A stretch of 38,995 bases of DNA, from NCBI GenBank assembly GCA_017436245.1, contig JAFSDN010000028.1:1-38995 (forward strand), in the 5' to 3' direction. Within the stretch, counting starts at the first letter, position 1, and each line of letters begins with the position of its first letter. Shown piece by piece: positions 461 through 17,697 of this stretch. The position numbers were made by a program, and so were the translations under genes. The notes under the pieces are model-generated. The model worked only from the letters and a program-made list of their open reading frames with translations. It made no database searches and was not told where the DNA came from. Origin of the DNA: Clostridia bacterium. Its GTDB lineage: Bacteria > Bacillota > Clostridia > Monoglobales > Monoglobaceae.

Positions 461-672
461 GCCAAACTATTGATTCAACAAAATAAGGGTGAACTCTATA
501 TTTTTATAATATAGGGAATTTTCCTCTATACTTTTATAGTTACAGATTGAATTTGATAAAAATGCAAATTCCTCTCTGTAACTATGGGAGTTTATCCTCA
601 TTTGTTGAGAATAGTTTGGCGACTATCGGAGTTTGCGTTTTTTTTGCGTCTGCTTTGGTAGGCGCATTTTTT
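461..672 (+). ncRNA. Unassigned structured RNA (6S-like candidate)
   Basis: There is no ORF here, but the region has its own promoter and terminator and long-range complementarity. 461-471 pairs perfectly with 610-620. 476-482 pairs with 601-607. 486-496 pairs with 588-598 with G-U pairs. Inside are hairpins 497-502/508-513 and 549-555/565-571 and a stem 536-545/576-585, which competes with hairpin 526-530/535-539. A long interrupted closing rod, an AU-rich internal region and a terminal stem recall 6S RNA, but the asymmetry of the internal loop is not typical. No tRNA, tmRNA, SRP or T-box motif was seen. The RNA identity is inference; the pairing is seen directly. Confidence 0.6.
645..672 (+). 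terminator. Terminator of the structured RNA
   Basis: An 8-bp stem (646-653 with 658-665, loop TTTG) is followed by six U (667-672). A separate run of eight T lies at 638-645 just upstream. Confidence 0.75.
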
Positions 673-17336: not shown

Positions 17337-17685
17337 ATTCGGTAGATTGGGCGGTCGCGGGCACAATGGAGCAATCCTGTGCGTGAGGAAAGTCCGAGCT
17401 CCGCAGGGCAGGGTGCAAGGTAACCCCTTGTGAAGGCAACTTTAAGGAAAGTGCAACAGAAATATACCGCCGGATTTTTTCGGTAAGGGTGGAAAGGCGA
17501 GGTAAGAGCTCACCCACGCTCCGGCGACGGAAGCGTGCTGTAAACCCCACCTGGAGCAACACCTGATAGAAGAGGTTAAGTCGGCCCGGCGTCTCTTGGG
17601 AAGGTGGCTGAAGCCCTGCAGTGATGCAAGGCTTAGATAGATGACCGTCTTAAATGACAGAACTCGGCTTACAGATCTGCCGAAT
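17337..17685 (+). ncRNA. rnpB: RNase P RNA
   Basis: This is the catalytic RNA that cleaves tRNA 5' leaders. The conserved blocks are present in order: GAGGAAAGTCCGAGCTCC near the 5' end, ACAGAAATATACCGCC, GGTAAGGGTGGAAAGGCG, AGATAGATGACCGTC and ACAGAACTCGGCTTACAG at the 3' end. The P1 helix pairs 17337-17347 with 17675-17685 and sets the ends. I see no convincing promoter just upstream, where the palindromic element sits. Confidence 0.96.
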
Positions 17686-17697
17686 AATATGAACAAC

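Follow-up and report, generated by a model that had tools for sequence, protein, structure and literature searches.

We identified a multi-copy family of structured RNAs in Clostridia, in which two helices covary, three complementary pairings overlap, and most of the examined members lie in front of protein-coding genes that are often those of surface or secreted proteins. On the sequence comparisons described here, we consider the family members to be leader RNAs that act in cis and in which a series of mutually exclusive pairings governs transcription elongation, and we give this reading a probability of about three in four. The element is thus best read as an orphan riboswitch candidate, a transcription-attenuation switch that serves a regulon of surface proteins. 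The copy from which the family was collected is located at positions 461-672 of the forward strand of a 38,995-nucleotide contig of a Clostridia bacterium (JAFSDN010000028.1), and this whole stretch is referred to below as the window.

Structure and identity of the RNA at 461-672

The minimum free energy (MFE) of the window copy is -78.8 kcal/mol, compared to -38.9 +/- 3.8 kcal/mol for dinucleotide shuffles (z = -10.5), and none of 200 shuffles was as stable. It is preceded on the same strand by a sigma-A type promoter (426-454), with a -35 sequence TTGATA (426-431), a -10 sequence TATTAT (449-454), a spacer of 17 and a TG before the -10. The distance between the end of the -10 and the first paired base of helix P1 is 7 nt, and a -10 hexamer matching at 4 or more of 6 positions was found at the expected place in 106 of 120 homologues, with an extended TG in 89. 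At the other end there is an intrinsic terminator, consisting of a stem-loop at 645-666 (stem 645-653/658-666) and directly after it a U-run (667-672). The initial annotation had described a structured RNA with its own promoter and terminator, and long-range helices of which the first pairs 11 of 11 bases, and both descriptions are borne out. This first helix is P1 (461-471/610-620, 11/11 pairs), which was found in the fold as well as by covariation in homologues, and it is continued in the fold by P2a (474-482/601-609) and P2b (486-497/587-598), so that the 5' strands of P2 span 474-497. P3 (510-530) is a hairpin on the 5' side of the junction that is only present in the long form of the element, and P4 (535-546/575-586) forms a long arm, both based on the fold and on homologue folds. 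The latter also support the 3' strands of P4 (575-586) and P2 (587-598 and 601-609), which together occupy 575-609. The arm is capped by the apical hairpin P5, whose 5' strand GAATTTG (549-555) pairs with 565-571 and resembles the GGAGTTTG of the tail described below. Earlier, two mutually exclusive stems had been noted at 526-539 and 536-545/576-585. Both are possible, but the second is the conserved P4 and the conserved switch lies elsewhere.

An Rfam 15 scan of 461-672 gave no family over the gathering threshold, and the matches at relaxed thresholds were far under the cut-offs, came from unrelated families and did not include 6S RNA. When the window and 20 homologous loci were scanned with Rfam 15, only tRNA and RNase P were found. 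The window carries a bacterial RNase P RNA class A at 17339-17687 (279.5 bits). This Infernal-type check, with no match to any known family, supports the earlier suggestion of a new class. A literature search, whose reach did not extend to the supplementary tables of large motif surveys, did not find a description of the motif, and an unnamed earlier listing, e.g., among the 3161 candidates of PMC8040213, is possible.

The initial annotation had proposed 6S RNA as a hypothesis, and had remarked that the asymmetric bubble fits 6S RNA poorly. The remark was correct, since the fold contains a side hairpin on the 5' side with no comparable opening on the 3' side, and thus does not show the symmetric central bubble with which 6S RNA mimics an open promoter. 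Like 6S RNA (RF00013), the element is long and rod-like, has a bulged region in its interior and comes with its own promoter and terminator, as would be expected of a 6S RNA, or of a divergent 6S paralogue that acts on RNA polymerase. However, the canonical 6S RNA of the same genome is encoded at another locus (C61:29708-29901, 75 bits, over the Rfam cut-off), there is no 6S match at 461-672, and the element occurs in many copies per genome, in leader position and with a terminator/antiterminator layout, which leaves the 6S hypothesis with a negligible chance.

A multi-copy family in Clostridia

A BLAST search with 455-630 against 60 genomes (own genome and relatives) yielded 21 places in 12 genomes, with several per genome, and one of these (L012) was by eye not a member. 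In the own genome, a covariance model built from 20 members identified 8 candidates (E <=0.1), of which four had E <1e-6. Within the order, 33 of 51 genomes had matches to this model. All of these belong to a single family, copy numbers reach 15 per genome, and in one genus the element takes a short form of ~130 nt. A pattern scan of genomes of named species retrieved at least 120 stretches, and the listed stretches came mostly from metagenome-assembled genomes of gut and rumen Clostridia labelled Oscillospiraceae, Ruminococcaceae, Monoglobus or Clostridia bacterium. With a model based on 106 members, matches were found in 72 of 391 sampled Clostridia genomes, covering 19 families, and the copy counts in this class-wide scan are lower bounds as 6 candidates per genome were scored. 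Among 199 genomes sampled across the phylum, nearly all of them from other classes, the only match was the window's own genome, and the family was not found in the ~190 sampled genomes outside Clostridia. The members fall into a long form (~160-200 nt) and a short form (~125-140 nt) with a common layout.

In the alignment of 106 members, P1 was paired in 98.3% of cells, with 4 pairs changed on both sides, and P5 in 91.8% of cells, with 6 of 7 pairs changed on both sides; because P1, P4 and P5 were part of the model used to fit the alignment, the pair counts for these helices lean towards that structure. For both P1 and P5, covariation exceeded that in shuffled and slid controls, P5 being far above them, and the element thereby passed the check for covariation among homologues that had been set beforehand. 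The two halves of the tail duplex, a pairing that is outside the model, were paired in 93.7% and 98.3% of cells, mainly with one-sided changes (106 members). In the folds of individual homologues, the shape of P2, P3 and P4 was kept with very different sequences.

The neighbourhood of some copies deserves mention. Two element copies that differ in their variable stems lie in tandem in L016 (genome G011, contig C13, 1166-1632), upstream of a single lipoprotein-like gene, an arrangement reminiscent of tandem riboswitches. In the own genome, an inverted partial element end (e.g., AAACTCCGATTGTTGTCACGCAA) is located beyond the terminator of the short form in L027-L030 (contigs C72, C98, C68 and C87), generating convergent pairs. 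The element terminators of L014 (1683-1715, own genome, contig C39) and L042 are interrupted at an identical position, beyond which both loci carry the same foreign sequence (TTAAATGAGTATAAGGAAGTTTTAAG...), which looks like the insertion or recombination of a single mobile sequence. No match was obtained when viral contigs were scanned with exact patterns, or in scans of plasmids and E. coli, and a viral origin was rejected on the empty viral-contig scans, although one unannotated phage-like faecal record did match. This unverified record, MT835503.1 (L184:338-1723), contains an element copy of 74.5 bits upstream of an ORF that by eye resembles an EcoRI-type adenine methyltransferase. Phages may therefore also carry the element, although the record could be bacterial.

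Alternative pairings and downstream genes

Three pairings are possible in the element. In pairing (i), P5 is formed (GAAUUUG/CAAAUUC). In pairing (ii), the tail GGAGTTTGCGTTTTT (628-642), just past P1, captures the switch strand AAAAATGCAAATTCC (558-572), which otherwise makes up the loop and 3' strand of P5. This is the pairing AAAAAYGCAAAUUCC x GGAGUUUGCRUUUUU, with 15/15 pairs in the window copy. In almost every one of 122 members, the tail pairs with the interior over 14-16 bp, and the own tail binds better than a swapped tail in 106 of these 122. Changes in length or sequence are matched on both sides, as seen in AAAAAUGCAACUCC/GGAGUUGCGUUUUU, GCUC/GAGC and the 16-bp variant of L100. In the MFE structures of long forms, ~7.8 of 14.5 tail-pairing bases are locally paired, and at least 4 bases are in common with local structure in 93 of 94 long forms, which places the tail pairing in competition with local folding. 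The half of the tail that the local partner resembles differs between the forms, being GGAGUUUG in long forms and UGUGUUUUU in short forms.

Pairing (iii) is the putative antiterminator, GCGACWAUCGGAG x CUUYGGUWGGCGC. In the window copy, its 5' strand GCGACTATCGGAG (619-631) forms 12 of 13 pairs with CTTTGGTAGGCGC (653-665), which consists of the loop and 3' arm of the terminator. The end of the antiterminator 5' strand is the start of the tail, GGAG being common to both, and the tail duplex overlaps 4 of the 13 antiterminator bases. A binding energy of -12 kcal/mol or better with GCGACAAUCGGAG is reached by 84% of the element terminators, compared to 3.4% of 530 other terminators drawn from the same loci (p = 4e-60). 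The antiterminator fold and the terminator fold of the window copy are nearly equal in energy (-78.8 and -77.3 kcal/mol), and the antiterminator core (623-632/652-661) is present in the MFE structure of the whole transcript. Most members are of the CAA/UUG type, and window-like members have CUA with UAG or UGG. The own antiterminator was better than a swapped one in 78 of 124 members, a weak discrimination because the strands are nearly invariant, and with some terminators (CUUCGGC or CUUCGGUC types) the predicted antiterminator is weaker. Support for the candidate antiterminator is therefore the contrast with control terminators together with a few CWA/UWG co-changes. Two other roles of the tail were rejected: any start codon would be too close for its GGAG to serve in a leader peptide or as Shine-Dalgarno sequence, as judged by inspection, and an antiterminator made up of the tail and the terminator's 3' arm would by eye have only ~5 bp. 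The initial annotation had regarded a switch as possible, and this is supported by the two alternatives for 558-572 (P5, or pairing with 628-642) and for 619-631 (pairing with 653-665, or formation of the terminator).

A ribosome binding site (RBS) and the start of an ORF within 60 nt after the U-run were found for 75 of 110 testable element terminators (68%), versus 27 of 497 controls (5%, p = 2e-45), and the median distance between U-run and ORF was 23 nt at the named loci. This tight spacing leaves little room for another promoter, and thus the promoter of the element itself probably drives the downstream gene. We used 88 downstream ORFs, 75 of which encode at least 100 amino acids, and 503 background ORFs. 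According to simple heuristics applied to ORFs of at least 100 amino acids, 71% of the downstream ORFs have an N-terminal hydrophobic segment compared to 17% of the background, and 27% have a lipobox compared to 3%. Pfam detected BspA-type leucine-rich repeats (LRR_5) in 18 of the 88 downstream ORFs, and other downstream domains were zinc ribbon, Listeria-Bacteroides repeats, SHOCT, dockerin and ricin-type lectin. By these predictions, the downstream ORFs are strongly enriched for secreted proteins, lipoproteins and BspA-LRR proteins. A small protein with the pattern MxDYxKxYxxLFNxxxDxIxxLxxxQ recurs behind the element (L006, L009, L008, L107 and L163).

The window copy differs in this respect. 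There is no convincing ORF in the window 3' of 461-672 on the same strand, and past the copy the sequence reaches the 3' end of an oxaloacetate decarboxylase-like gene in convergent orientation (814-2231). This gene is split in two frames near 1857-1880, either by a frameshift or an assembly error. An element beside the oxaloacetate decarboxylase-like gene was not found in eight congeners, in one of which (L189) the stretch covered ends within the gene. Several other own-genome copies also lack a gene, while L025 and L026 have one. Since the window copy has every part of the switch and no gene behind it, it is either a leader that lost its gene or a free-standing RNA that works in trans. The earlier description of the RNA as free-standing consequently applies to the window copy, but not to the family, since most examined members are leaders of protein-coding genes.

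Proposed mechanism, alternatives and significance

In the proposed mechanism, transcription would start at the first base of P1, and the sensing domain P1-P2-P3-P4-P5 would form. The 3' strand of P5 would then either remain in the hairpin or form a 15-bp duplex with the tail GGAGUUUGCGUUUUU, just past P1. If P5 remains intact, the tail would be free and the antiterminator could form, allowing the polymerase to read into the downstream surface or secreted-protein gene. If the tail is captured, GGAG would be withheld, the antiterminator weakened, and the terminator would form. A candidate signal would act on the P5/junction domain. We infer the competition between these pairings during transcription, the direction of the switch and the site of the signal, and since the tail duplex overlaps so few of the antiterminator bases, the same applies to its role as anti-antiterminator. 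What was found at the family level is what characterizes an attenuating leader, namely a covarying structured domain, a terminator and an antiterminator that exclude each other as judged by complementarity and energies, and, though not for the window copy, a gene directly downstream on the same strand.

Several other explanations deserve consideration. The element could be a stable small RNA that acts in trans, with a terminator that just ends it and downstream genes that are expressed by constitutive leakage. The very stable fold and the copies without a downstream gene, including the window copy, fit this explanation, and there is a precedent in the raiA motif/ModT RNA (RF03072), a promoter-driven structured RNA with pseudoknots and a terminator in Clostridia, which was once proposed as a riboswitch and, according to PMC11706538, proved to act in trans. 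Unlike the raiA motif, the element lacks an Rfam match, is multi-copy and is linked to genes. The frequency of an RBS and ORF close behind it (68% versus 5%), which leaves little room for another promoter, and an antiterminator complementarity that is specific to element terminators, make a trans-acting RNA unlikely.

We consider it less probable still that the element promotes processive antitermination, as EAR or put do, by acting on the polymerase rather than by local strand exchange. Its position directly before a terminator and gene, and its surface-gene regulon, agree with such a role, and like EAR/LoaP-type leaders it is a leader RNA upstream of cell-envelope genes that would promote read-through. 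However, the Rfam scans of the window and the 20 homologous loci gave no EAR match, and processive action is unnecessary because a specific antiterminator strand complements the adjacent terminator. Finally, the up to 15 copies per genome, the tandem and convergent partial copies, the locus-specific window copy and the copy in a phage-like record could point to a small mobile repeat that brings its promoter and terminator along, the leader position being a by-product of insertion. This is very improbable, since variable stems are kept despite changed sequences, helices covary, and the strong bias in gene class, together with the tight spacing, agrees with selection as a leader.

The attenuating leader that we favour resembles transcription-terminating riboswitches and T-box leaders, in which a sensing domain is followed by an exclusive antiterminator and terminator, and then by an RBS and gene, with a regulon of multiple genes. 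It differs from them by lacking an Rfam class or known ligand, and by the extra 15-bp capture of the tail by the 3' strand of P5. A riboswitch-like attenuator is a known kind of mechanism, whereas what looks new is the family itself, together with the tail-capture step and the surface regulon. In Clostridia, surface and adhesion genes are also controlled by c-di-GMP riboswitches (GEMM-I and GEMM-II), and the element is comparable in its proposed control of surface genes, but different in lacking an Rfam match and in that GGDEF was not detected in some of the genomes that carry it. GGDEF was found in 32 of 51 genomes and not in several carriers, including G032, G020 and G011, these being incomplete drafts. 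Of these, G032 is 94% complete and has 13 element copies. This makes c-di-GMP unlikely as a universal ligand, although drafts can miss genes.

It is conceivable, although we lean slightly against it, that the element represents a new riboswitch class common in gut Clostridia, with which a small molecule or second messenger sets a genome-wide surface and secreted regulon by a three-way strand exchange between P5, tail and antiterminator, and of which free-standing copies, such as that of the window, may act in trans or as decoys. The many gene-linked copies provide a rich set for ligand finding. If the proposed reading is true, a signal would be linked to BspA-like LRR adhesins, lipoproteins, dockerin and lectin proteins and membrane zinc-ribbon proteins, and a large RNA-controlled regulon would have been overlooked in abundant and mostly uncultured gut Clostridia, for which the element may be a common, unrecognised means of surface control.
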